A stretch of 29,433 bases of DNA from a virus: the IMG/VR virus record IMGVR_UViG_3300030103_003280, positions 2,659 through 32,091 of that record, one strand, 5' to 3'. The notes under the pieces were generated by a model, which had not been told where the DNA came from, made no database searches, and saw nothing but the letters and a program-made list of their open reading frames with translations. Of the stretch, positions 1-15,226 are shown piece after piece. The first letter of the stretch is position 1. Every line of letters begins with the position of its first letter. A program made the position numbers and the translations under genes.

Positions 1-3000
1 ATGGGTATTTCAAGTCCAACGCTTTTTAAAAATGATTGTATAGCTTGTGCAGATTCAGGGGCCCGGGCTGTTAATACGAAAACATCTTCAGTTCCTCTTG
101 CTGCTTGTATTTTTTTAGCTACATTTAACAATGGGCCTGGTTTACCATCTCTCACTACATTAAAGTCATCAAAATTAAAATCTGCTCCTTCAAATAATAA
201 TTCAGATCCACGTTCTGCAAATTGCTCAGCTGTTAATTCGCCTTTAGTTCCATCTGGCATTGTATAAAATACTAAACTATTGCTTTGAGCTAGAGTGTCA
301 TCAAAATCAAATACTCTAATTTTCTTAACAGGAGCGTCTGGATCTCTAGCTATAGACAAAGCTTTATCTAGTACTTCACTTTCAATAATTGTAATACCAT
401 TATTTTGAGTTTCAGAAGGTCTAATAACTTCACTTTTACCAACAAGCTCAACGTTTGATTTTTTAGTTTTAGGATTATTATTCATTTTGCTAAACTGGCT
501 ACTATTTTGACCTATAGTTTCACCAGTATACAAAGTAAATTGCATTACCTTTAATAAGTCATTATATCTAGTGTTCCATTGGCTATCTCCTATATTATGT
601 TCAAGACCCATTGAAGCTTGTAACCCTACTTCTTGAAGCATTCTTTTGTCAATGCCTCTTGGTATCATTATAGTATTAAAATTATCTAGTTCTTTATTAA
701 AATCAGATTTGTTTTTAGTAGAAGGATCTAGTAAATATTTATATGTTAATAAAGCCATATATTTAGCTGGTGTCATATGCTCTAAAACATAAGGATCAGT
801 ATCTTTTAAATCTAACATTTCCGCGAGTTGAGCTCTATCTAAAGTTGGATAACCAATAAAAGAAGCAGCTGTTTTAATATATCCAGACATGCTAGCTCCT
901 CCTATATAAACAAACCACCTAGCTTCAGCAGCTGTTAAATCCCCATTTCTTCTCATTTCAGCTAAGTCTTCAACTATATCTCTTAAGTTCTTTTTGTTAG
1001 CTTCACCTTTATCATGTAATTGTCTTGAAAAAGCTAAACGCTCGTTAGTAGACATACTACTCCAAAACTTTCCATTTATTTTTTGTTTATCCATAAACCA
1101 ACCTTTAGTATAGGTTTGTTTATCTATTCTTTTAGAGTCAATATCTTTAGATGATGGAACTTCTGGATTATCTAACACATTTTTTCTTAAATCTTCTACA
1201 CCTCTAAATAAACTAGATCTAGCGGTAGTTCCTTCTTCAATATATTTATTTACTGTAGATAAATTACTTTCAATATTATCTATTTTACTAGGAAAAATTG
1301 TAAGTTTATTTTTACTTAAATCTACTTGAAAACCTCTAAAATCTAGTAAATCCGCCATTGCTTGAAGTCCTTCAGGATCAGCATTAGTATATTCTATAAC
1401 ATCATTTACTATTAAAGCTTTGCCTCCTATAGCTGTAGTTGGCAAACTTCTAAGTACTTCATTTTCTGTTAAAGTTAAACCGTTAGGAACTTGATTAACT
1501 ATAAGACCACCTAACCCACCAGCTCCAGCAAAAGCATTAGTAAAGTATTTTTCAAACTTTTCTCTACCTATTCTTTTAGCTATTTTTAAAGCTAAAGTTC
1601 TACCTTCATTTATGCTGTCTCTATCTTTAGCATTAAAATTAACGTTATTAATTCCTTCAGATAACTCTAAAGCTTTATAGTCGGTTTGATAATTAACATC
1701 TCTAATAAAGGCTAAAGAAACAATATCAGCAAGTTCTTTAGAGTCTATTTTTTCTAACTTTGCTTTAACTTGTCGTGATATTGTTGGACCACTAAAATCT
1801 CTAGCTATTTGTTTAATCTGTTTATCACTTAAATTTTCAAAAGTATTATTAGGTATAAAGTGATTTTTTATAGCGTTAGCTAAAGGACTCTTTACATTGT
1901 TTTCAAAATTAGCAGCTAATAAAGATCTAAATCCGCTGCTAGCTAGGCCAGATATAAAAGTTTGTTTATCTTGATCTTTAGCAGCAGCAAGTGTGTCACT
2001 AAACTTAACAGTATCTTGCTGTAATATTTCACTAGCTGTATTATCTAACTCAGATTCTATGTCTTGTATAACATTATCTACAAACAATTCTGTTACTTGA
2101 AGATCAGTCATTCCAGTTCTATCTGCTAGATCTTCTATAAATGGTTTATCTTGTCTAAGTCTAGCTAACTCAGATCTTGTTAATTGCTGAGCCATTGGCT
2201 TTATTAAAGACCTCTGTCTTTCAATTAATGTAGTATAACCACCTCTAGTGAAATATCTTTGGAATTTTTGAGCATCTGGTTTTTCTAACTTAAATATTTG
2301 TTTTCTATAGTTAGTTACTTTACCAGTGTCTGGATTTACTTTTTTAATATCTTCCCTTCCTATTTCAGTTAGTTTAAATATTTCTGCCCAAGCTTTACTT
2401 TTTGACTTTTGCTTAATGAGATTAGTAGGCATTGAGCCTACTATAGTCATCATTTCATCTTTAATAAAATCAATATATTGCTGTGGTGCAAAACCTAAAA
2501 CACTTCTAGTAATAGGGCCCATTTTATCCTTAATTACTTTAGTCATTTCTTTTTCAATAGCAGTGTTAAGATCTGTTAATACAGATTCCGTAGATATACC
2601 TTCTGTTAGAGCTGTTCTTTTTAAAGTTCTAGTAATAATATCTTTAACTTCATCAACTAGTTCAGGTGTAATTATTTCTAAATCTTCAACTGGTTTAATT
2701 TCTCTAGCTTCTGATTCAGGAACAACACCTCTTCTAGCACTAGTTATATCTACATCAAATCTCCCAGCTTTAACATCTTCTATTTGCTTAGCTGTTTCAC
2801 TGTCTATAGAAAGATCATCCCTAACTAAATCGTTAGGTAAATAACCAGTTATTCTTTGATTCAACCTGTTGTTAATCCAATTAGGTAAAGTGATATTTCT
2901 AAAATTAGACATATTCCTATTAGCATATGATTTTACCAATCCAGGTACACCAGATCCACCAGTGGCCATATCAGAGATTACATCTTCCATAACAGCATCA

Positions 3001-6000
3001 CTCCAATTAGTCCAACTGCTTGGTCTTAAAAATTGTTTACCTAAACTATATCCTTTTATTAATCTAGATTTTACATCATTACGCCATATATTGCCTATTT
3101 CTAATGCTCTAGAGTTTAACGATTTATCTGATGTATTAAATATTTTATCTGTTTTTTGATATAAAGTTTCTGAAGCTTTTATTTCAGAAGCAGCTAATTT
3201 TTTTCCTTCAGGTTTTTTAGCTTGTTGCAATTCAATTATATCTGTTTCTTGTAATCCATCTTGTTGTAGTTTTTCACTCAAAGCTTGTCTAGTGCTAGTT
3301 ACATCTATACCACTTTTAAGAGCTTTACCTAAACCTATAAAATATTCTAATATTTCAGCTTCACCTTTAAACTTAATATCAAAAGCGTTGTCACTTGCAG
3401 TAGCTAAACTACCATTGAACATTTTACCAAGAACAGCAATTTGATTATCCATTTTTTCTAAATCAATCTTATCGTCAGCTACAGCTTCCATAAAGCTAGA
3501 CACTAATTCAGAAGAATTAAAACTACCATCTGCATTTCTTAAATTAGAATTATCCAAAGCCATTTTAGTAATTACATTATCTTGATTAGTATATTGTAAA
3601 TAATGTACTATTTGATCAGCCATTTTATCAAAAGCTTTTGGATTTGTTTTAAGAAACTCATTAGTAATACCATGAGTCATTTCATGTAAACTAGTTCTAG
3701 TTTGATTATTAGCAAACATGTTATCTTTAACTACAATACTAGTGTTTAAATTGCCATCATTTATACCATTTAAAGTTTTACCACTGAATCCATTTAATAT
3801 TCTTAATTTATCAGCTTTTAATTTATCTACCTTTGATTTATTTCCGGCTTCTTCTTCTTTTTTTATGAGCTTGTCATACTCTTTATTTATAAAAGCATTA
3901 GCTTCTTGAGCTGTTTTAAAATCTTTAAAACCTAACTTTTGTTTAACAGATATTCTTCTATCTTTAGCTATTTGCTCATCTATCTCTATGTTTTTAACTA
4001 TGTTACTACCAGCTTGATTTATTTCTTCTGTAGTTGGATCATAGTTGTTACCTTTTTCTTTTCTTATATTTTGTATAGCTTCTGTTTTAATTTTTCTAAA
4101 TTCTACTCTAGCTTTACTGAATGGAGCTGATCGTTGAGCAGCAGCTGCAAGAGCGGCAAATCCATCACCAAAAGTTTTTGAATCAGTAAAAATATTTTGA
4201 TAAGCTTGAATAGATCTATATTCATTATCTAAAGCATCTAGTTGTTTTTGTTTTTCTGTATTAGATAAAGTCTTATCTTGTGCAACAGCTTCAGCTTCAG
4301 CTCTTATTTCAGACATAGCAACCTGACTTTGTGAAAACTGTTTTACATATCTTGGTTCTCTTATACCGTTTTTCTTTATATTTATTTCTACTTGATTAAC
4401 AGCCTCAACTACTTTATTCTGCGCTTGCTCTCTTAGTTTTCTTAACTTAGAAATTTCTTTATTAATGTCAATATCTGGAGCTAAACCTTCACCTTTAATA
4501 TTAATTTTTTGATTAATAAGGTTATTTATTTTCATAGAATATTCACTAACATCTCTATTAGCTTCTTTTATTATTCTAAGTTCTTTATTGTTAGCAAAAC
4601 TTCTTTGACCAAAACTAACTACACCTACAGACCCAGACATACCAGCTCCCCAAACACCAGCTGTAAATAAAGTCTCTGTCATGTTTTCTAAAAATGGCCT
4701 ACCATCTATTAAGTTTTGTAAACCTGTAGTTAAACCTTCTGCACCCATTTCAGTTAAGGTTTCAGGTAATAATTCTTTTGTAAAAAACTTACCTAAAAAC
4801 TGCCTTCTACCTAGCTCTTCAGCTTCGTCTAAAACAGCTCTTCCAACGTTAAATCCTTTTATTTTTCCAATACCTTTACTAATCATAGGAGCTGTACTAA
4901 CAGCTGCTAAGCCACCTTCAACTACTCCATACATTAAACCTTTAAGTAATACTTCTGCGTTTGAATAAAGATCTTTACCCGTCACAAACTCATCATAATT
5001 CATGTCACTTACTTTACCACCAAAAGATGATAATCCCACAAGTGAAGAACTTGATATAGTACTTAATCTAGTAAGTTGCGCTGCTGTTAATCCAGCTGCT
5101 TCACCAGCTGCAACAGATAGACCGCCTGTAGCTACCATAGATAATATTATAGGTAATTGACTAGCTATAGATTGCAAAGAGTATTCTCCTACGTCAGCTA
5201 ATGTTTTTATTTCTCCAAACTCTTGATCTTTTTTATACTCTTCAGATACTTCATCTTTATAATTCTGCCAAGACATCATTACATTGTCTAACACAGTTCT
5301 AGAGTCCATACCTAAACCTTTAAGCATATAAACTGCTGGATTAGTTATCTCTAGCAACTTGCTCGCTCCATAGCCTACATTTATTAAAAGATCTGCAGTA
5401 CTCATAGATAATTGAGCAAAAAACTTAGCTCCATCATTGTAATTTCTTTTTATAACATCCCATTGCTCAGATTCATCTGTCATTTTTGCAACTTGATTAA
5501 AGAAATTATTTTGTTCTATTTTAGCTAGTTCAATTTTAGAACCTAGTATAGATTTTTCTTTTTGAGCATTTCTAACCAAAGCAGCAGGCACTAATCTACC
5601 GTCTATAGGGACGTACTCTTCTCCAGCTTTTATATTATAAACAATTGTTGGATTATCTATAAAATTATTTAATTCTTTTATATTGTTAGTTCCGTTTTCA
5701 ATGAAGTTATTAACCTGTCTATGTGCTATTTGAGTTATATAATTTGCTTTTTCAGCTTTATTTACAGCTTTTATTTTAGATCTACTTTTATATATTCTTA
5801 TTAGGCTTTCATCTAAAGTTGTTTCTATATCAGTTCTTCCTTCTATATAATCCTCGTATTTATTAGACTTAGTATCGTTTTCAATTTTAAGTTTTAAGTT
5901 TTCTCTAGTAAGATCTTGAACTTCTTTAGAATTAATAGTTAAAGGTTCCTCTCTTTCAACACCATTAGCAACATCTGAAATATTTAATTGTTGTAAAGCT

Positions 6001-7301
6001 TCATTTAATTCTTTTTCATAAGGCTGTATTACTATTGTAGATCTTCCAGCTGCTCCAGTCATACCACCTTGACCAGAAATAACTCTAGTTGTTGTACCAA
6101 AGCTTATATTATTAACTTCTTCTTGTATTTTAATTCTATCTTCTGCTGACAGACCTAAAACACCGCCTTTATTGCTACCACTATTTACACTATTTATTAT
6201 ATTTCTTTTTTGTTCATCAGTAGTACCTGGCGCAAATGAAAAGTCTAATGCATCATTGAATAAAGCAGCTACTTTATTTTCTTGTTCTACAGTTGTATTC
6301 TTTATTTGTTGTAGTACCGTGTCATCTAGAGATGCTCCTAGGAATTTAATAAACGCTTTCTGAGCAGCTTTAGGACTTTGATCATATGTTCCTGGATCAA
6401 ACAATGATTTAACTTCATGTACGTTACCTCTTGGATCTTGTATTATTACAAATTGTTTAGCTCCTTTTTTCTTTTGTCTTTTTACTTCATCTGGTATTTT
6501 AGTACCTGATTTTTCCATAGCATCAAGCATTTCCATAGTAAACCTACCATCCATAAATGAATTATCAGGAGTCCATATCTTAAACCCTTCTGGTAAAGAG
6601 TTTTCAAAAGCTTTTCTAAATCCTTCAGCTCCAACATCATCACCTGAACCTTTGTATGGAGTAAAAAATCCTATATCAAAAGTTTCTTCTGATAATGTTA
6701 ATTCTTCTTCTGGCTTTATTTGCCCTGACTCGTCTAAATATTTTTCTCTTTTATCTATCTCTTCTTGCGGATCTGTACCAGGTGCTAATACTTCCCCTAG
6801 ATAATTACCTTCAGGTAAGAAATTACCTCTTTTATATTCATCATAATTTACTATAGTAGCTATTTGATTATCATAACTAGGTGCTGCTATAGGGTCAGCT
6901 AAAGCTTGGTTAACATCTTGAACACTTGTTAATGGGTCTTTTTCAACTTGAGAATCTTTCCACTCTTGCCATTTTACTCTTCTCACATCCATTAAAGGTA
7001 AACTAGCATATTGCTCATCTGTCATTTCAGGCACAAAACCAGGTGCTTGAGGGTTTTCTACAACTTCTTTTTCTTCGTAAGTAATACCTCCTTTAACTGC
7101 TGCTTGACCTCCAAGATTAATTTTACCTGATAACATGTCATCTATAGTAGTTCTTACTTCATCACTATAATTATATAGTGTTCCAAAAACTTCATTTATA
7201 AACTCTCCATCATTTCTCAACATAGTTGAAAATTCTTGGGAATCATATGGGTTATCAAATGTTGAAGCATAAGCTTCATATAGTAAATCTTCTGGATTCA
7301 T
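1..7301 (-). CDS. Giant multi-domain virion/ejection-type protein with HExxH and HAD-like domains (C-terminus off window)
   Basis: The frame opens with ATG at 7301, one base after the previous stop, and stays open for 2433 codons to the left edge; the stop lies outside the window. Residues about 1-350 are acidic and unrecognised. Three Gly/Ala-rich hydrophobic segments at about 716-741, 783-803 and 876-896 could cross a membrane. A long charged helical part follows. Residues 1206-1210 read HEMTH, with acidic residues E1265 and E1272 downstream that could be the third zinc ligand, as in gluzincin peptidases. From about 2328 comes a HAD-type domain: DFDDT with nucleophile D2332 and acid D2334, then a motif II candidate LTAR with T2411. 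The gene sits last after two gp14/gp15-like internal proteins, where podoviruses keep their large ejected protein. Size and mixed domains fit the large polyvalent proteins described in phages. The frame and motifs are seen; packaging in the virion and both enzyme activities are inferred. Confidence 0.85.
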   Translation of the reverse strand, partial: MNPEDLLYEAYASTFDNPYDSQEFSTMLRNDGEFINEVFGTLYNYSDEVRTTIDDMLSGKINLGGQAAVKGGITYEEKEVVENPQAPGFVPEMTDEQYASLPLMDVRRVKWQEWKDSQVEKDPLTSVQDVNQALADPIAAPSYDNQIATIVNYDEYKRGNFLPEGNYLGEVLAPGTDPQEEIDKREKYLDESGQIKPEEELTLSEETFDIGFFTPYKGSGDDVGAEGFRKAFENSLPEGFKIWTPDNSFMDGRFTMEMLDAMEKSGTKIPDEVKRQKKKGAKQFVIIQDPRGNVHEVKSLFDPGTYDQSPKAAQKAFIKFLGASLDDTVLQQIKNTTVEQENKVAALFNDALDFSFAPGTTDEQKRNIINSVNSGSNKGGVLGLSAEDRIKIQEEVNNISFGTTTRVISGQGGMTGAAGRSTIVIQPYEKELNEALQQLNISDVANGVEREEPLTINSKEVQDLTRENLKLKIENDTKSNKYEDYIEGRTDIETTLDESLIRIYKSRSKIKAVNKAEKANYITQIAHRQVNNFIENGTNNIKELNNFIDNPTIVYNIKAGEEYVPIDGRLVPAALVRNAQKEKSILGSKIELAKIEQNNFFNQVAKMTDESEQWDVIKRNYNDGAKFFAQLSMSTADLLINVGYGASKLLEITNPAVYMLKGLGMDSRTVLDNVMMSWQNYKDEVSEEYKKDQEFGEIKTLADVGEYSLQSIASQLPIILSMVATGGLSVAAGEAAGLTAAQLTRLSTISSSSLVGLSSFGGKVSDMNYDEFVTGKDLYSNAEVLLKGLMYGVVEGGLAAVSTAPMISKGIGKIKGFNVGRAVLDEAEELGRRQFLGKFFTKELLPETLTEMGAEGLTTGLQNLIDGRPFLENMTETLFTAGVWGAGMSGSVGVVSFGQRSFANNKELRIIKEANRDVSEYSMKINNLINQKINIKGEGLAPDIDINKEISKLRKLREQAQNKVVEAVNQVEINIKKNGIREPRYVKQFSQSQVAMSEIRAEAEAVAQDKTLSNTEKQKQLDALDNEYRSIQAYQNIFTDSKTFGDGFAALAAAAQRSAPFSKARVEFRKIKTEAIQNIRKEKGNNYDPTTEEINQAGSNIVKNIEIDEQIAKDRRISVKQKLGFKDFKTAQEANAFINKEYDKLIKKEEEAGNKSKVDKLKADKLRILNGFSGKTLNGINDGNLNTSIVVKDNMFANNQTRTSLHEMTHGITNEFLKTNPKAFDKMADQIVHYLQYTNQDNVITKMALDNSNLRNADGSFNSSELVSSFMEAVADDKIDLEKMDNQIAVLGKMFNGSLATASDNAFDIKFKGEAEILEYFIGLGKALKSGIDVTSTRQALSEKLQQDGLQETDIIELQQAKKPEGKKLAASEIKASETLYQKTDKIFNTSDKSLNSRALEIGNIWRNDVKSRLIKGYSLGKQFLRPSSWTNWSDAVMEDVISDMATGGSGVPGLVKSYANRNMSNFRNITLPNWINNRLNQRITGYLPNDLVRDDLSIDSETAKQIEDVKAGRFDVDITSARRGVVPESEAREIKPVEDLEIITPELVDEVKDIITRTLKRTALTEGISTESVLTDLNTAIEKEMTKVIKDKMGPITRSVLGFAPQQYIDFIKDEMMTIVGSMPTNLIKQKSKSKAWAEIFKLTEIGREDIKKVNPDTGKVTNYRKQIFKLEKPDAQKFQRYFTRGGYTTLIERQRSLIKPMAQQLTRSELARLRQDKPFIEDLADRTGMTDLQVTELFVDNVIQDIESELDNTASEILQQDTVKFSDTLAAAKDQDKQTFISGLASSGFRSLLAANFENNVKSPLANAIKNHFIPNNTFENLSDKQIKQIARDFSGPTISRQVKAKLEKIDSKELADIVSLAFIRDVNYQTDYKALELSEGINNVNFNAKDRDSINEGRTLALKIAKRIGREKFEKYFTNAFAGAGGLGGLIVNQVPNGLTLTENEVLRSLPTTAIGGKALIVNDVIEYTNADPEGLQAMADLLDFRGFQVDLSKNKLTIFPSKIDNIESNLSTVNKYIEEGTTARSSLFRGVEDLRKNVLDNPEVPSSKDIDSKRIDKQTYTKGWFMDKQKINGKFWSSMSTNERLAFSRQLHDKGEANKKNLRDIVEDLAEMRRNGDLTAAEARWFVYIGGASMSGYIKTAASFIGYPTLDRAQLAEMLDLKDTDPYVLEHMTPAKYMALLTYKYLLDPSTKNKSDFNKELDNFNTIMIPRGIDKRMLQEVGLQASMGLEHNIGDSQWNTRYNDLLKVMQFTLYTGETIGQNSSQFSKMNNNPKTKKSNVELVGKSEVIRPSETQNNGITIIESEVLDKALSIARDPDAPVKKIRVFDFDDTLAQSNSLVFYTMPDGTKGELTAEQFAERGSELLFEGADFNFDDFNVVRDGKPGPLLNVAKKIQAARGTEDVFVLTARAPESAQAIQSFLKSVGLEIP

Positions 7302-7302
7302 A

Positions 7303-8454
7303 CTATTGATTATATGTTGTAATTAAGTCTTCTGTTAAAGCATCAAGAAATAAATCTTGAGTAAACGTGGCAGGATCATATCCCATACCTGCAAAAACAC
7401 TTCTAGGATTTTGACCTTTTACACCTTCTAATAAAAAACCAATTCCTTCAGGTGTATTTCTAAAAGCCTTAAGTTTGTTTACGTCTAACGTTACTTGATC
7501 CTCAGTAACAGGCTCCATACTGTATATAGTTTTTGATTTATCCTTAGGATCAGGTATTTTTTTCATCTGAGTTTTAGGAACTAGGTTTCCATTTTGATCT
7601 TTAACCATAACAGGTTGAGCTTCTATTGTTCCAAAGTCATATTGAGAATTTTGGTATCTTCGTAAACCAGCATCTAAAAACTCTTTACGACTTTTAAATT
7701 GTTCAGGAGAAAATATTTCTACTTGTTCAAAAAACTTAATATTTTTAGGATCTTTTTGAGCATAATTTCTATATTCAGTTAAACTTGTTGCAATTTTAGG
7801 CTTACCATAGGTAACATTACCTTGAGCATCTACTTGTTTATCAAATTTACCAATATTAAAGCTTCTTCCATTAGCATCAGGAACAATACCTACATCACCT
7901 GTGCCATTGTAGATAGATTCATATATTGGTAGCATTTCATTGAATTGAGCATCTGGATCACTTAATATAGCATCTTCTTCATTAGGGCCTAAATTTTTAT
8001 CTTTAATATCCTTATAAACTCTATATCCAGCTACAAAGTTATCCATATCTTGTTTGAAAATAGATATTTTATTATCATACTCAGCTTGTATTTTACTTAC
8101 TTCTGCCGCGCTCATATCTGGATCGGCTATCCTATCTAAAAATTCAGTTCTCATAGCCATTAAATTTTCCATAATAGCATCATCTTGAACATTTTTAGCT
8201 CCTCCTACTTCAAAATCACCTATTTTTTTAGCAACATCTTCTAAGTGAGCAAAATCTTTATCAAACTTATTTAACGCTCTATATTCTCTTTGTTCTTTTT
8301 TAGATGCAGCTTTTTCAGCTTCTTTCTTGTTTATAGCAGCTTGTCTTTGAATATTTTCACTAACGCCTTTCATAGCTGTAAAAAACTGAGCTATGTTTCT
8401 AGCCCCTTGATCTATTTTCATTCGCACTGCTTGCGGATTGTCGTATGCTCCCAT
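7303..8454 (-). CDS. Putative internal virion (cargo/ejection) protein, 383 aa
   Basis: I do not recognise a named domain. The protein is 383 residues, charged and mostly helical in appearance. A strongly Lys/Glu/Ala-rich stretch at about residues 40-75 looks like coiled coil, and a second helical stretch runs to about residue 145. The middle and C-terminal parts look more globular. It ends in TAG one base before the ATG of the giant gene and follows the gp14-like gene by 11 bases, so the three are almost certainly co-translated. In T7-like podoviruses the equivalent slot holds gp15, between gp14 and gp16, and crAss-like phages carry cargo proteins after the muzzle gene. Role as an ejected internal protein is inferred from position. 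The leader is A/T-rich (AATAAATAAATAAAAT before ATG) with no Shine-Dalgarno. Confidence 0.7.
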   Translation of the reverse strand: MGAYDNPQAVRMKIDQGARNIAQFFTAMKGVSENIQRQAAINKKEAEKAASKKEQREYRALNKFDKDFAHLEDVAKKIGDFEVGGAKNVQDDAIMENLMAMRTEFLDRIADPDMSAAEVSKIQAEYDNKISIFKQDMDNFVAGYRVYKDIKDKNLGPNEEDAILSDPDAQFNEMLPIYESIYNGTGDVGIVPDANGRSFNIGKFDKQVDAQGNVTYGKPKIATSLTEYRNYAQKDPKNIKFFEQVEIFSPEQFKSRKEFLDAGLRRYQNSQYDFGTIEAQPVMVKDQNGNLVPKTQMKKIPDPKDKSKTIYSMEPVTEDQVTLDVNKLKAFRNTPEGIGFLLEGVKGQNPRSVFAGMGYDPATFTQDLFLDALTEDLITTYNQ

Positions 8455-8465
8455 ATTTTATTTAT

Positions 8466-9137
8466 TTATTCCGATAAACCTTGCCCAACAATACCGGCGC
8501 CACTAGCAAAACCACTAACACCTGCCATCATAGCTGTATTGCCAGCTTGAGTTAAATCCATAGCTTGTTGTCCTGCTACTTGTTGTAGACCAGCAGCTCT
8601 ATTTAAAGCCATTATATCTCTTTGCTCTTGTCTACCATAAGCACCGATCTCCTCTTGAATAGCTGCTTGTTCTATAGCCATTTGCTGATTCATTTTTTGT
8701 TGCTCACCTTGTAAGTATAGTTGTTGATTTTTAAGTTCTTGGTTTTCAATACTAGCAGCTACTTGAGCTTTACTAGCTGCAGCTTGTCTAGCTAAAGCAG
8801 TTGCAGCACCAGCACCACCGCCTGATCTATTAATAGCATTTAAAGTATTAGCCAAAGCTTCATCTGTTTCTTCCATTTTTAAATTAACACCTTGCATTGC
8901 TACGGCATTGTTTTGATATGGATTAAATATTTGATCTTTCATAGCTCTTATATCACCTGATTTATCAATAACAGCTTGCCTATTAGCTTCTATTCTTCTA
9001 AGTTCAGCTGCTGCTAAGTTTTCTTTTCTTCGTTGATCTCGAGCTGCTCTTTGGTTTTGTGAATTTTGTGAAAGGCCCATACCTAAGCTACCTAAAGCTG
9101 ATACGGCTCCTACAACTATCATTCCTATTCCAGCCAT
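8466..9137 (-). CDS. Internal virion protein with N-terminal membrane segment (T7 gp14-like by layout), 223 aa
   Basis: Residues 3-20 are a Gly/Ala/Val/Met-rich hydrophobic segment that could insert in a membrane. The rest is Gln/Ala/Glu-rich and predicted helical, with a flexible Ser-Gly-Gly-Gly hinge near residues 105-110, a Gln-rich coiled-coil-like stretch around 120-175 and a Gly/Ala-rich C-terminus. This resembles T7 gp14 in size (about 200 residues), N-terminal membrane segment and position before the other internal proteins. In T7, gp14 leaves the capsid first and helps form the channel through the cell envelope. The similarity is in architecture and order, not in a residue motif I can point to. 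It could equally be a crAss-type cargo protein. The gene starts 3 bases after the cupin stop. Confidence 0.7.
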   Translation of the reverse strand: MAGIGMIVVGAVSALGSLGMGLSQNSQNQRAARDQRRKENLAAAELRRIEANRQAVIDKSGDIRAMKDQIFNPYQNNAVAMQGVNLKMEETDEALANTLNAINRSGGGAGAATALARQAAASKAQVAASIENQELKNQQLYLQGEQQKMNQQMAIEQAAIQEEIGAYGRQEQRDIMALNRAAGLQQVAGQQAMDLTQAGNTAMMAGVSGFASGAGIVGQGLSE

Positions 9138-9608: not shown

Positions 9609-11330
9609 TTACATTGATGATAATACATAATTTGATGATACTGAAAACAACTGTTTAGCACCACCTACATCTGTGCTTCCATCTATTGACATTTTAACTG
9701 TCATTAAGTATCCTTTTACACCACTAACGTCACTGCCAAATATAACTTCACCTGGTCTAGCAGCACTAGCGTTAATTAAGTTTGCTACGTAGTGATTTTC
9801 TTTTCTATCAAAACCAGCTCTAAATATTGGCTCTGTTAAAGCTGCTGGATATACATTACCACTGTTGTCATATTGACCTTCAACATAGCTTTTTACAGTG
9901 CTAGTACTATCTTGGTATTGGTTAAATGTTCCTGCGTTTTGTACTTGATCAAAACCTTCAAAGTCAGATTTATAACTATCTACTTCCCAACCATTGTTAC
10001 CTTCATAAGCAATAGTATTAAAGTTTTTAACTACAGTAGGATTAGGGTTGAATATAAACTCTACAAAAGCTTCGGCAGGTGTAGTAGCACCATAAAACTT
10101 ACATCTACTATTAGAGACGGTTTCATCGTAATGTTTATAAATATTGCTATCAATAAAACTAAAAAAGTTATTTTTTAAACTACCCATAAACACAGGTTTG
10201 TAGCTATAAAAACTAGTCCAACCTTTTATTTGCTCATCATAACCTAGCGTGTCAAAAGTATTACTAGCCGCAGATACTGTTCTTGGTTTTGTTTGAAGTG
10301 ATATAGTGTAAGCGGATTGATGTGCATCCCAAGCTCCTATAGCCATACCTCTTCTGTAAGTTACAAAAGTAATATTAGTATAATCTCCAGCTGATCCAAA
10401 ATTAAAAGACCCACTTAGTGTAACAGATGTTGGTAGTGGTATATCAACAACAGTAAGACCAGTGCTTGTTACAGCACCACCAGAAGCTGTTATTTCAACA
10501 GCTGCTCCAATTTCACAACTAGCGCTGATATTGCTACCTAGATTATTTATTGTGGTTTGAACTCCAGAAGTAGTTAAACTAATAGTAGTTCCAGTTGCTT
10601 GTCTTTCATAACTATCTGATATAGTAGCTAGAGTGTCTCTAAAATAATCTTTCATACCATAGCCTGATATTTCAGTTATACCATCTCTAGATAACCTAAG
10701 AATAGCAGCTCTATCTTTATCTGCAAAATATTTTCTATATCCATATTCAGCAAAACTTTCAGGGTTCCTACTAATACCATATTCGCCTAAATAAGGAACA
10801 TCTTGGCCTAAAACATTTACATTGCCAGTTTCTAAAGAACCTTGATCGCCTGAATATATAGCATTTTTATTTATTAAAACTTTACTAACTTTAGCTTCTT
10901 GGAATACATTTAAGTTAGTGTCCTCAGTAAATAACTTTTGAATAGATCCGTTTCTAGGATCTAAATCTCTTATCAATGGATCTGCTATAGAAAAAACATT
11001 TGTTTCATTAAAACCAGTTCTAGTATTTAATAATCCAGAATATATTAAGCTGTGCTTACGATCTAAAGCGTCTATATTTAAGTTAACTGTATATGCCCTC
11101 ACTCCTAATCCAACTTGAGCATTATTGAAACCACCTTTAATTCTAGACTCTTCTAAGTAAAAATTACTTCGTGTTGCTCCAGTTTTTGGATTAGAATTAA
11201 AAGGAAAAGGCCTATAACCACTAGGGTTCCAAGGTAAACCAGGCCAAGCATCTTGTGCGGGCACAGAATTATCAAGTATTCTTTTCAACCAGAAAGCATT
11301 AAAATATTTTACTCCAATAGTATAGCTCAT
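9609..11330 (-). CDS. Tail/muzzle-associated structural protein, 573 aa
   Basis: A beta-rich, Asn/Ser/Tyr/Gly-rich protein of 573 residues without cysteine-rich or catalytic motifs. The segment around residues 140-235, with the pattern Phe-Gln-Glu-x-Lys-Val-Ser-Lys-Val-Leu-Ile-Asn-Lys-Asn-Ala-Ile and then Gly-Ile-Ser-x-Asn-Pro-Glu-Ser-Phe-Ala, is one I associate with tail (muzzle-type) proteins of crAss-like phages. Residues about 245-330 look like an inserted Thr/Ser/Gly-rich beta domain. It follows the 1286-residue gene by 35 bases, and the two probably assemble together at the tail tip. In some relatives these parts may lie on one polypeptide. Assignment is by resemblance and order; its exact place in the virion is inferred. 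Confidence 0.75.
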   Translation of the reverse strand: MSYTIGVKYFNAFWLKRILDNSVPAQDAWPGLPWNPSGYRPFPFNSNPKTGATRSNFYLEESRIKGGFNNAQVGLGVRAYTVNLNIDALDRKHSLIYSGLLNTRTGFNETNVFSIADPLIRDLDPRNGSIQKLFTEDTNLNVFQEAKVSKVLINKNAIYSGDQGSLETGNVNVLGQDVPYLGEYGISRNPESFAEYGYRKYFADKDRAAILRLSRDGITEISGYGMKDYFRDTLATISDSYERQATGTTISLTTSGVQTTINNLGSNISASCEIGAAVEITASGGAVTSTGLTVVDIPLPTSVTLSGSFNFGSAGDYTNITFVTYRRGMAIGAWDAHQSAYTISLQTKPRTVSAASNTFDTLGYDEQIKGWTSFYSYKPVFMGSLKNNFFSFIDSNIYKHYDETVSNSRCKFYGATTPAEAFVEFIFNPNPTVVKNFNTIAYEGNNGWEVDSYKSDFEGFDQVQNAGTFNQYQDSTSTVKSYVEGQYDNSGNVYPAALTEPIFRAGFDRKENHYVANLINASAARPGEVIFGSDVSGVKGYLMTVKMSIDGSTDVGGAKQLFSVSSNYVLSSM

Positions 11331-11365: not shown

Positions 11366-14300
11366 CTAACTTAATAATCTTATTTCTTGAAGACAACTAG
11401 CTTGTAAGCCACCGCCGTCTGTAACAGTTACATTAAAAGTAAAAGGCCCAGCTCCAATGTTATTATAAGCATTTGCTAAAACATTTAATTTTCCAGTAGT
11501 TGCTCCAGATCCAGATGTGTAATCAACTGAAAAATAAGTATTAACAACTTCATCAGCAATTACAGCTTGCACACTTAGATCTTCACCTCTACCAGAAGTA
11601 TTTAATAAATTAGTTCCATTAAATACTTGAAATTCATAGACCTCTTGATCTCCACTTACAGTGTCAGCAACATCAACGCTACTTCCACAACCAGCTCTTG
11701 TTCCACTTGTTGTAGCGCCATAGCTTTGTATTGCTATAGTAGGTATTCTGTTTGTTAAAGCTAATGTAGGATTAACACCAGATGTTCCAGGAGCTACAAT
11801 TAGTCCTAAGTCACTAGTTAACAATGTTCCATCGCTTAAGTATGTAGAGCTAGGCGTTGTAACTCTTATAGTAAAATTATATATGTCATTAGTAGATGAA
11901 TTAGATCCAAAATATTTATAAACTGAATTTCTTATTGCAAATCTTCCGCCGCCTAAGCTTAAAATATTAAAATCACTAGTAACGTCATTTGGAGTGCTTG
12001 CAGAATCTGTAGCACTAATAAGCGTAAAGGTTGGATTTATAGGATAAGTAGTTGGATCTAGTGTATTACTTATAGGATCTCCTAAATAATCAGTAACATA
12101 ACCATCAAATAAGTTATTATTCAAAGGTACGTTCTCAGGAAATGCCCAAGCTATAGCTACTGGCGTTGTACCAATGTTTGTTTGACTTCTAAAACCGTAA
12201 GGCGTATAGTTATCATTAAGAGCTATATTAGTATTTAGCTCAGATATTTTACCTGAAGTAGATGTTTCCCAATATATATCAAGTTTTGAATCAAGTGGAT
12301 TAGTCTCAAAAACTGAAAACATTGGCCTCATAGCTAGTGGATTATTAGAAGTGCCACCCTGAGTTCCTAAAGCTTTTCTAGTTACAGTTATTCCAAATTT
12401 ACAATTAGCATCTCCAGCGGCTGCTATTGTTGCAAGAGCTGAAATACTTCCACCCATAGGTATATCAGCAGTGTCCCAACCTGAACCTTCATTTGTAATT
12501 ATTACTTGAGACACAACACCTGGTGCAGCGGAATTTATTTTAAAAGTTATTTGTATTCCTTTATTTCTAAACTTTACATCGTCTGTACCAGTTCCTTCAA
12601 AAACAACAGGAACTCCAGAGCCACCAGCCCCTGGATAATTTGTTCCTCCACTTCCTCCAGTAGCACCTACCCCATCACACTTTACTATATATTCAGAAGC
12701 GTCTTTACTTGGACCTGTTAAACCAAAGTTGTTTGGTTGTATGGTAGTAGCTGTATTAGCACTGTATATATTTATTTTAGCTATAAATGGGTTTTGTTCG
12801 TAATTATAAAAAACAGGTGCTGCATTATAAGGATATTTAGCAACATTACCTATAGCAAATAACCCTAAATCAGATCCAGTTCCTATAGCTGTTACTATTT
12901 CACTTTTTTGTTCTGGATAATATTGTGTTGAAAAAGTAGTTGTAACTTCACCAGCATTTAACACTCTAGTAAATAGTTCAACTGAAGCGTTGTTTACTTG
13001 ACTTCCTGAATCTAAATCTCTTTCTCTATCTCTAGTTTTTAATAACTGTTCTCCTTCTTCAGAGTAAGGATCAACTTGGAATAAATTACCATTAGTATCA
13101 GTAAATTGATAATAATCAGGATCTTCACTAAATGATGGCCTAGCTGTTCTAAACACGTTTTGATTAGGACCTACTAAACTAGTATCTTTTGGTATTTTAC
13201 TTAAATTATCAGAGTGTAAAACAAAATGTCCAACTGGCTCTTGTAAACTAGCATTAAGTGGACTTGGAGTTTCACCATCTATGTAACCATTTAAAACACC
13301 TGGGCAATATACATTATAATAATCTACTTCAGTTTGTTTAACTACTATTTTATAGCTATACCAACCAAGAGGATTAGTAGTACTATATAAACCTGGAGTA
13401 CCTAAAGAACTATTAAAAGTAGAACTAATAAGTTCATTAAATCTAATTCTTAATTGATCACCTGGCCAAGTGTCACCAGCGCCTGAAAATAAATTATTAG
13501 TAAGAGGTAATGCTGGATCAGTAGGGCTAGTATAATAACTAAAAGTGTTAGCTGTTGATTGAGCTGTACCACCTAGTTTTTCACCATCTTTATATGGATG
13601 ATATATAGTAGATCCTTTTAAAATAGTGTTTTGAGAATTATCATCAACTGTAGATAATATAGTATCAGATTGTCTACCATATTTATCTGATAATACTACT
13701 CCTACTTGATAAGTTCTATTTTGTTTAAGTGTATGATTTTGATATTCTCTTCTTACGAGTGACGATTCAGTTCCAGTAGCTGCAGATTCTTCTACTTTAA
13801 AACCTGATTGTGTGTTAAAATTCAATAAGTTAGGAGGAGTGTGCTTATCTACTATATTGCCAAATACTAATCTATTACCTACTACTTCTTGAGCTAGTGC
13901 TCTTACAGGTACTTGATCATATACTCTTAATAAATCTCTTGTTGGTAAAGTTCTAAAAGGTTTTCTAGATTGATATTCATATATTAATAATGGACTTGTA
14001 GATGTAGAAAAGTCAGAGGCAGGTATAGTTTCAATTAGCTTTAATGTAGTTTGAGAATCATCTTTAAATATTACTTCAACTTCACTTATTTTTAAATCTG
14101 TAGTTGCGTCTGACCAATTACTGCTTTCTGCTGGGGAAGGTATTAATAGCTTTATATTATTAACTTTATTTTGCATAAAGTCAACTTCTGTAGACTTAAA
14201 AGTTTTATCTTTATCATCATCTATGAAATATCCATCTTGCTGTGGTATAAAGCACGCTTGCGTAAAAGGTGATATTAGAGAATATTCTCCATCATCAAAT

Positions 14301-15226
14301 TTAAACCTATAAGCAAACCTTACAAATTTATCTTTTAAATAGTTTTTATCACCAGGCCAATTAGCATTGTAATAAGGGTTTATAAAACCATCTGGTAAAC
14401 GTGGTGATGTTACATCTTGCATAGTAGTTATTTCTTGAACTACAATAGTGTATGGACCAGCCCCAGTACCACCGCCGGTCCTTAGTATAGGAATAATTGT
14501 TTCACCATTTACATATCCAAAACCAGGATTTCTTAAAGTTAAACTACCATTTGCCGCTATATCAACAGTTAATCCAGTTCCAGAACCACCTGTAGTTTGT
14601 AAGTTAATGTCTGGTGTATAACCACTTCCTGCAGATACACTATTTACATTAGTAACTAAAGCAGCTATTAACGATATAGGTTCATAAGGATAATACTTTG
14701 ATAAAGATATTTGGTCTTCTGTAGTGTAATATGTTGAGCTTCCTAAAGCTCTATCTACATTAATTTTTCTTGGTTGATTTCTATTATCTGTAAAATATAA
14801 ATTGCTATTAATTAAATTAACACTTAATACAGGACTTGTTTTTGAAAAGTTTAAAAAGTTACCACTAACTAATAATGATGCAGTGCTATTACTTATATTG
14901 TAAACGCCTATGTGACACTGTGCAGCAGAAGGAGCAAAATTAGATAATCTATCAGAAGAAGTATCAACATAGTTACTCATAAAAACAAATATCCTATTAT
15001 TGTTTAAATCCATAAAAAATCCAACAACGTCAATATTTGCAGCTGTTAAGCCAAAATCAGTTAAGGATATGTTACCTAGTACATTTTCTAATGATCCTAC
15101 GTCTGCACCTTCAGATTTACTTACAGAAACATTTTGAGCGTCTCTATATTCACCTGGAGGTACAAGCCTAGCGTCTAAGTCTCTGTTCATTTTAGACTTG
15201 ATAAAACTATTCCTTGCTTCAGCCAT
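11366..15226 (-). CDS. Tail stabilisation/muzzle-type protein, 1286 aa
   Basis: The N-terminus (residues 1-55, with Ser-Lys-Met-Asn-Arg-Asp-Leu-Asp and Pro-Gly-Glu-Tyr-Arg-Asp-Ala-Gln-Asn) is a pattern I know from stabilisation or muzzle proteins of crAss-like and marine podoviruses. Short aromatic strands at about 65-160 look like blades of a beta-propeller. Residues about 193-265 form a Gly-Ser-Gly-Tyr-Thr module with Gly-Gly-x-Gly-Thr-Gly turns, and a related Gly-rich module recurs at about 845-950. The last 140 residues look like Ig- or cadherin-like strands. Such proteins cap the short tail and hold the DNA in the head. The gene starts 4 bases after the 395-residue ring protein gene. Length fits a large tail-tip protein. 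Family is moderately sure; the domain boundaries are estimates by eye. Confidence 0.8.
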   Translation of the reverse strand: MAEARNSFIKSKMNRDLDARLVPPGEYRDAQNVSVSKSEGADVGSLENVLGNISLTDFGLTAANIDVVGFFMDLNNNRIFVFMSNYVDTSSDRLSNFAPSAAQCHIGVYNISNSTASLLVSGNFLNFSKTSPVLSVNLINSNLYFTDNRNQPRKINVDRALGSSTYYTTEDQISLSKYYPYEPISLIAALVTNVNSVSAGSGYTPDINLQTTGGSGTGLTVDIAANGSLTLRNPGFGYVNGETIIPILRTGGGTGAGPYTIVVQEITTMQDVTSPRLPDGFINPYYNANWPGDKNYLKDKFVRFAYRFKFDDGEYSLISPFTQACFIPQQDGYFIDDDKDKTFKSTEVDFMQNKVNNIKLLIPSPAESSNWSDATTDLKISEVEVIFKDDSQTTLKLIETIPASDFSTSTSPLLIYEYQSRKPFRTLPTRDLLRVYDQVPVRALAQEVVGNRLVFGNIVDKHTPPNLLNFNTQSGFKVEESAATGTESSLVRREYQNHTLKQNRTYQVGVVLSDKYGRQSDTILSTVDDNSQNTILKGSTIYHPYKDGEKLGGTAQSTANTFSYYTSPTDPALPLTNNLFSGAGDTWPGDQLRIRFNELISSTFNSSLGTPGLYSTTNPLGWYSYKIVVKQTEVDYYNVYCPGVLNGYIDGETPSPLNASLQEPVGHFVLHSDNLSKIPKDTSLVGPNQNVFRTARPSFSEDPDYYQFTDTNGNLFQVDPYSEEGEQLLKTRDRERDLDSGSQVNNASVELFTRVLNAGEVTTTFSTQYYPEQKSEIVTAIGTGSDLGLFAIGNVAKYPYNAAPVFYNYEQNPFIAKINIYSANTATTIQPNNFGLTGPSKDASEYIVKCDGVGATGGSGGTNYPGAGGSGVPVVFEGTGTDDVKFRNKGIQITFKINSAAPGVVSQVIITNEGSGWDTADIPMGGSISALATIAAAGDANCKFGITVTRKALGTQGGTSNNPLAMRPMFSVFETNPLDSKLDIYWETSTSGKISELNTNIALNDNYTPYGFRSQTNIGTTPVAIAWAFPENVPLNNNLFDGYVTDYLGDPISNTLDPTTYPINPTFTLISATDSASTPNDVTSDFNILSLGGGRFAIRNSVYKYFGSNSSTNDIYNFTIRVTTPSSTYLSDGTLLTSDLGLIVAPGTSGVNPTLALTNRIPTIAIQSYGATTSGTRAGCGSSVDVADTVSGDQEVYEFQVFNGTNLLNTSGRGEDLSVQAVIADEVVNTYFSVDYTSGSGATTGKLNVLANAYNNIGAGPFTFNVTVTDGGGLQASCLQEIRLLS

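Follow-up and report, generated by a model that had tools for sequence, protein, structure and literature searches.

The stretch of DNA analyzed here (the window; 29,433 nucleotides of the IMG/VR virus record IMGVR_UViG_3300030103_003280) begins with a giant minus-strand gene whose product reads HEMTH at residues 1206-1210. A preliminary description took this motif, together with two downstream glutamates, for a gluzincin pattern in a protein likely to be injected with the DNA. This raises the questions whether the motif is real, whether it belongs to an enzyme, and on what such an enzyme would act. The following features describe the gene and its immediate neighborhood:

3..7301, minus strand: putative giant virion or ejection-type protein, first 2433 aa (open reading frame; relatives L003 and L004 62% identical over these residues)
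3..326, minus strand: HAD-phosphatase-like domain with FDFDDT...LTAR, truncated at the window edge; one of the best conserved regions of the giants
4881..4952, minus strand: hydrophobic segment, residues 784-807, which may insert into a membrane (hydropathy)
5112..5168, minus strand: hydrophobic segment, residues 712-730, which may insert into a membrane (hydropathy)
7303..8454, minus strand: 383-aa protein directly upstream, in the position of elemo gp19 and phi38:1 gp100 (synteny; ejection role presumed)
8466..9137, minus strand: 223-aa protein, in the position of elemo gp20 and phi38:1 gp99 (synteny; weak match to the virion structural family phrog_2867, E=0.016)

The giant gene runs past the window edge. 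The complete record (G000) extends 2658 bases beyond the window, and the gene appears broken there because four N (G000:C1, about 2655-2658), across which the record was joined over an assembly gap, interrupt it; the genes of the relatives are intact and encode 3265 aa (L003) and 3431 aa (L004). The remainder is readable after the gap, in L002:292-2487. Within the protein, the two hydrophobic segments are followed by the zincin-like domain and, about 1100 residues further downstream, by the HAD-phosphatase-like module. Only 9 of the 2433 residues are histidines. A tblastn search of phage records with the giant protein gave no match, an Rfam search of the window returned nothing, and a profile scan seeded with the three closest giants recovered only the same three.

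The closest terminase, portal and capsid proteins are those of flavobacterial podoviruses and their relatives (MW202828, elemo, Maribacter phage Panino, Cellulophaga phages phi38:1/Calle), and the host is probably a marine, flavobacterial bacterium; matches in cellular MAG contigs have labels (Bacteroidetes, Flavobacteriaceae, Aliivibrio, Woesearchaeota and others) too varied to decide the host. The giant gene is the last of the structural module, the place occupied by elemo gp18 and phi38:1 gp101, both of which are annotated 'structural protein', a label only. By analogy, the two smaller genes that precede it may recall the T7 14-15-16 order. Given the position at the end of the module, the two smaller preceding genes and the two hydrophobic segments, the giant protein is likely to be packed in the virion and ejected with the DNA, and the gene position thus fits the ejection-type protein that had been proposed.

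The numbering given earlier for HEMTH, E1265 and E1272 agrees with the codon positions, and the leucine before and the glycine after the motif are indeed present in the window, while neither is kept in relatives. The positions of the site are as follows:

3267..3956, minus strand: zincin-like domain, residues about 1116-1345 (alignment A6, AlphaFold2 models)
3672..3686, minus strand: HEMTH motif, residues 1206-1210 (translation of the open reading frame; H1206, E1207 and H1210 in 67/67 aligned HExxH domains)
3507..3509, minus strand: E1265, likely third zinc ligand (Glu in 67/67)
3486..3488, minus strand: E1272, possible second-shell residue (acidic in 63/67)

By analytic calculation, 0.0026 HExxH motifs are expected in the giant protein of the window. 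Two further six-frame matches occur in the window, both in stop-interrupted frames. To place the motif among relatives, 80 loci were collected by a scan that used the HAD-like domain downstream as its anchor. In 72 of these, HExxH precedes the HAD motif by 853-1716 residues; composition shuffles predict 0.26 such cases across all 80 loci. The eight loci without HExxH upstream comprise five that read EExxH, one without a recognizable domain (L171), and L179 and L172. The last two were counted as not readable over the zincin-like region, which leaves 78 readable loci: L179 is truncated at the 5' end, and the HAD-bearing open reading frame of L172 begins about 900 residues before HAD and shows HExxH motifs only past HAD. 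Conservation of HExxH among homologues, which the preliminary description had named beforehand as the test that could refute its reading, amounts to 72 of the 78 readable relatives, so this test did not refute the reading. The motif is also found in eight diverged giants from viral contigs and, as in the window, in Elemovirus elemo gp18 and the MW202828 giant. The latter (L100:741-12320, minus strand) carries two HExxH motifs, both HEFGH, about 885 residues apart. HEMTH is therefore a real motif. Its arising by chance in a long helical protein is ruled out by these counts and by the independent, full conservation of E1265, and we assign that reading a negligible probability.

In the three close relatives of the window giant the motif is HEITH and both E1265 and E1272 are retained, even though this region ranks among the less conserved of the protein. 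Over 67 non-redundant domains, H1206, E1207, H1210 and E1265 are invariant. As this set was chosen by requiring HExxH, the invariance of E1265 constitutes independent evidence, and it makes E1265 the likely third metal ligand. In the 57-sequence alignment A6 the same four residues are the sole invariant columns, at a mean column identity of 15%. Between the second histidine and E1265 lie 54 residues in the window protein and 46-106 across relatives. Both E1265 and E1272 had been put forward as third ligand; the former is borne out, whereas E1272, with 35 Glu and 28 Asp among the 67 domains against 67/67 Glu at position 1265, is ruled out in that role.

The fold was predicted with AlphaFold2 for residues 1016-1365, using 57 aligned relatives (pLDDT 84.4, pTM 0.78); a tighter construct gave a weaker model (pLDDT 77). 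In the model, helices are followed by a strand, two helices, two strands, the HExxH helix, further helices and the helix bearing the glutamate:

3918..3929, minus strand: predicted first strand, residues 1125-1128 (AlphaFold2)
3729..3767, minus strand: predicted beta hairpin immediately preceding the HExxH helix, formed by strands 1179-1182 and 1187-1191 (AlphaFold2)
3645..3695, minus strand: predicted helix bearing HExxH, residues 1203-1219 (AlphaFold2)
3477..3515, minus strand: predicted helix bearing E1265, residues 1263-1275 (AlphaFold2)

Foldseek searches of the PDB with both models yielded no significant match and no solved zincin, and a search of BFVD with the first model yielded weak matches only, the best being an uncharacterized protein of an uncultured virus (E 0.02). 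The structure prediction suggested in the preliminary description thus returned the helix and strand order of a zincin, without a match to a solved one. Since the order fits and Foldseek retrieved no solved zincin, the predicted fold is compatible with a zincin, not proven to be one.

Searches with the window protein against Pfam, PHROGs and PDB gave no peptidase match above curated cut-offs. Some members of the family come closer to known peptidases: 2 of 57 match Peptidase_M78 (Pfam) over the HExxH segment (best E 0.0028), one domain matches eCIS_core (Pfam; E 0.0028) and one giant matches a PHROG metallo-protease (E 2.6e-6). A subgroup consensus matches Peptidase_M78 at E 0.06, and the best consensus reaches 13.6 bits, below the Pfam cut-off of 22; the IrrE structure 3dte matches weakly over the HExxH segment (E 3), and the window domain itself does not match Peptidase_M78. 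The likeness to the IrrE-like zincins of M78 is weak and lies over the HExxH segment. The context differs as well, M78 proteins being free-standing regulators and toxin-antitoxin partners. Of the gluzincin pattern recognized earlier, what holds is the conserved HExxH...E site; for membership of a MEROPS gluzincin clan no match was obtained, neither in Pfam or PDB sequences nor among solved zincins by Foldseek.

The nearest parallel in function is offered by the virion RNA polymerase of coliphage N4 (vRNAP, gp50) and its Schitoviridae homologues, which likewise hold an internal HExxH domain in a virion-carried, ejected giant of ~3500 aa, encoded, like the window giant, near the portal and capsid gene module. 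Iyer et al. (2017, PMC5512222) treat the N4 domain as a zincin-like MPTase, and a recent N4 vRNAP structure contains a conserved HExxH subdomain (PMC12633501). Profiles of the giants were compared with eleven N4-like vRNAP HExxH domains using hhalign, with 60 shuffles that kept the motif in place as null. The best subgroup scored 37.3 against a null maximum of 30.8, whereas the margin of the window's own subgroup was negligible (29.04 against 28.97). These scores suggest, but do not prove, remote homology beyond the motif, the similarity being weak; the N4-type domain also has a similar hairpin-like stretch ahead of HExxH and, further on, a conserved glutamate of NEFMAW type. Unlike N4 vRNAP, the window giant has a HAD-phosphatase-like module downstream and no detected RNA polymerase domain; the giants gave no match to such a domain in Pfam or PHROGs, searches that a very diverged copy could escape.

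The MPTases of polyvalent proteins also belong to large multidomain proteins of mobile elements with an HExxH...E domain, and are described as a three-stranded sheet, the HExxH helix and a second helix with a glutamate, with variable inserts between (PMC5512222). The order predicted for the window domain (three strands, HExxH helix, later Glu helix) is in line with that account, a likeness by description. PF18818 (MPTase-PolyVal) matched none of 14 related records, nor did it match the control, and no match to other Pfam polyvalent domains (LPD, ART-PolyVal) was reported in the giants.

The exceptions among the relatives are informative. EExxH replaces HExxH in five of them (L122, L152, L155, L156 and L163), in which the domain is still recognizable (28-54 bits), E1207, H1210 and E1265 are kept, and the position aligned with 1272 is Asn. 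All five form one clade (97/93), and the tree needs a single change where shuffling gives 4.9, so the putative first zinc ligand appears to have been swapped for glutamate once, with a single origin, and catalysis looks dispensable in this clade. Furthermore, the HExxH domain is absent from the shorter giants of Panino (1829 aa) and of Callevirus phi38:1, whose gp101 (1691 aa) occupies the same gene position as the window giant. Together with L171, these domain-less relatives and the EExxH clade suggest that the activity is not essential everywhere. The overall layout of the giant is unchanged in the EExxH clade, which speaks against obligatory self-cleavage. Possibly, an injected protease turned there into a pseudo-enzyme, or the metal site acquired a new ligand set, in either case under selection; we put this forward tentatively. 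The clade provides a natural control for the function of HExxH domains in injected proteins.

A conserved metal-site domain is well supported by this pattern of conservation, and its being an enzyme moderately so. We consider it fairly probable that the domain is a zincin-type metallopeptidase whose activity, in cis or against a host protein, follows delivery. In this scheme, the giant would be packed in the virion and ejected with the DNA into the host, as are polyvalent proteins and N4 vRNAP; H1206, H1210 and E1265 would hold one zinc ion, according to the standard zincin arrangement, and E1207 would serve as general base that activates water. Once delivered, the domain would cut the giant itself, freeing the downstream modules, or cut a host protein. 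Because it sits between other modules of the giant polypeptide, self-processing is placed slightly ahead, itself only a tentative choice. The second branch, in which the delivered domain cleaves a host protein, for instance one of defense, envelope or transcription, to the benefit of the phage while the giant stays whole, is possible and a little less favored. It would account for an accessory-like distribution, the site being conserved family-wide amid strong divergence, lost in the EExxH clade and absent from related phages, and it is among the alternatives considered by Iyer et al., who report that N4 vRNAP is packaged unprocessed (PMC5512222). There is, however, no substrate signal, and the presence of a single such domain between modules in most giants fits self-processing equally.

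That the packaged N4 vRNAP is whole also weighs against a virion maturation protease, which would cut the giant or its neighbors during head assembly, before packaging. Prepackaging autocleavage was inferred for DdrB of phage P1 (Iyer et al., PMC5512222), yet the EExxH clade and the domain-less relatives presumably assemble without an intact site, and we regard this reading as decidedly improbable. Somewhat less improbable, but still unlikely, is a non-peptidase domain in which HExxH...E binds metal for folding or for other chemistry. The lack of a solved zincin among the Foldseek matches is consistent with such a domain, as is the retention of the domain with E1207, H1210 and E1265 in the EExxH clade, and radical SAM enzymes also contain HExxH motifs (PMC12633501). 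On the other hand, the predicted succession of helices and strands agrees with what is described for MPTases (PMC5512222), and a general-base glutamate with three ligand-like residues, one of which (E1265) is found in 67/67 domains though unselected, amounts to a peptidase signature.

The idea that the peptidase opens cell-wall cross-links, as raised in the preliminary description, proved unsupported; no match to wall-peptidase families was obtained. Wall-degrading domains do occur in ejection proteins such as T7 gp16, and a cell-wall endopeptidase could ease the ejection channel through peptidoglycan; phage wall metallo-endopeptidases, however, usually employ other folds and motifs (M15, M23), and related phages have separate genes annotated peptidase M15 or endolysin. 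We therefore give this role very little probability.

HExxH domains of injected proteins being already known, what the giants add is a new, widespread and unannotated zincin-like family, in which a conserved peptidase-like site precedes a phosphatase-like module. Phages related to this one abound in viral metagenomes, with at least 600 matches in a terminase scan and 466 stretches confirmed in the HAD scan. Isolated relatives with the site exist as well, namely the elemo phages on Flavobacterium sp. BAL314. With these isolates and the solved N4 giant (entries 9pnr, 9pnt and 9pnw) at hand, the role of HExxH domains in injected proteins is directly testable.

The giants are multidomain polypeptides that combine zincin-like and HAD-like domains. 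In L003, the counterpart of the HAD-phosphatase-like domain is located at L003:16054-16461. The polynucleotide kinase family phrog_415 matches 10 of 14 giants, presumably in the HAD region, suggesting that the module may be an injected nucleic-acid end-processing activity; a HAD profile retrieved nothing useful from the PDB. L109 holds a P-loop kinase in addition: in its giant (L109:1429-12267, minus strand) a P-loop kinase segment (GGPGSGKS) directly follows HAD motif I and parts this motif from the remainder of the HAD-like domain. Zeta_toxin/AAA_33 matches one of the 14 scanned giants, most likely that of L109.

The muzzle protein of the window matches Pfam crAss_MUZ above cut-off. By its setting, the giant can be likened to the cargo proteins gp45-gp50 of crAss001 (PMC10172136), virion cargo encoded beside a crAss-type muzzle; the terms zincin, protease and peptidase are absent from the main text of that paper. 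The muzzle is split over two adjacent minus-strand genes, 9609-11330 and 11366-15226, the larger of which corresponds to the N-terminal part of crAss_MUZ/phrog_14478 and the smaller to the C-terminal part. L003 and L004 have similarly sized genes in matching order, while elemo gp22 is one gene of 1470 aa.
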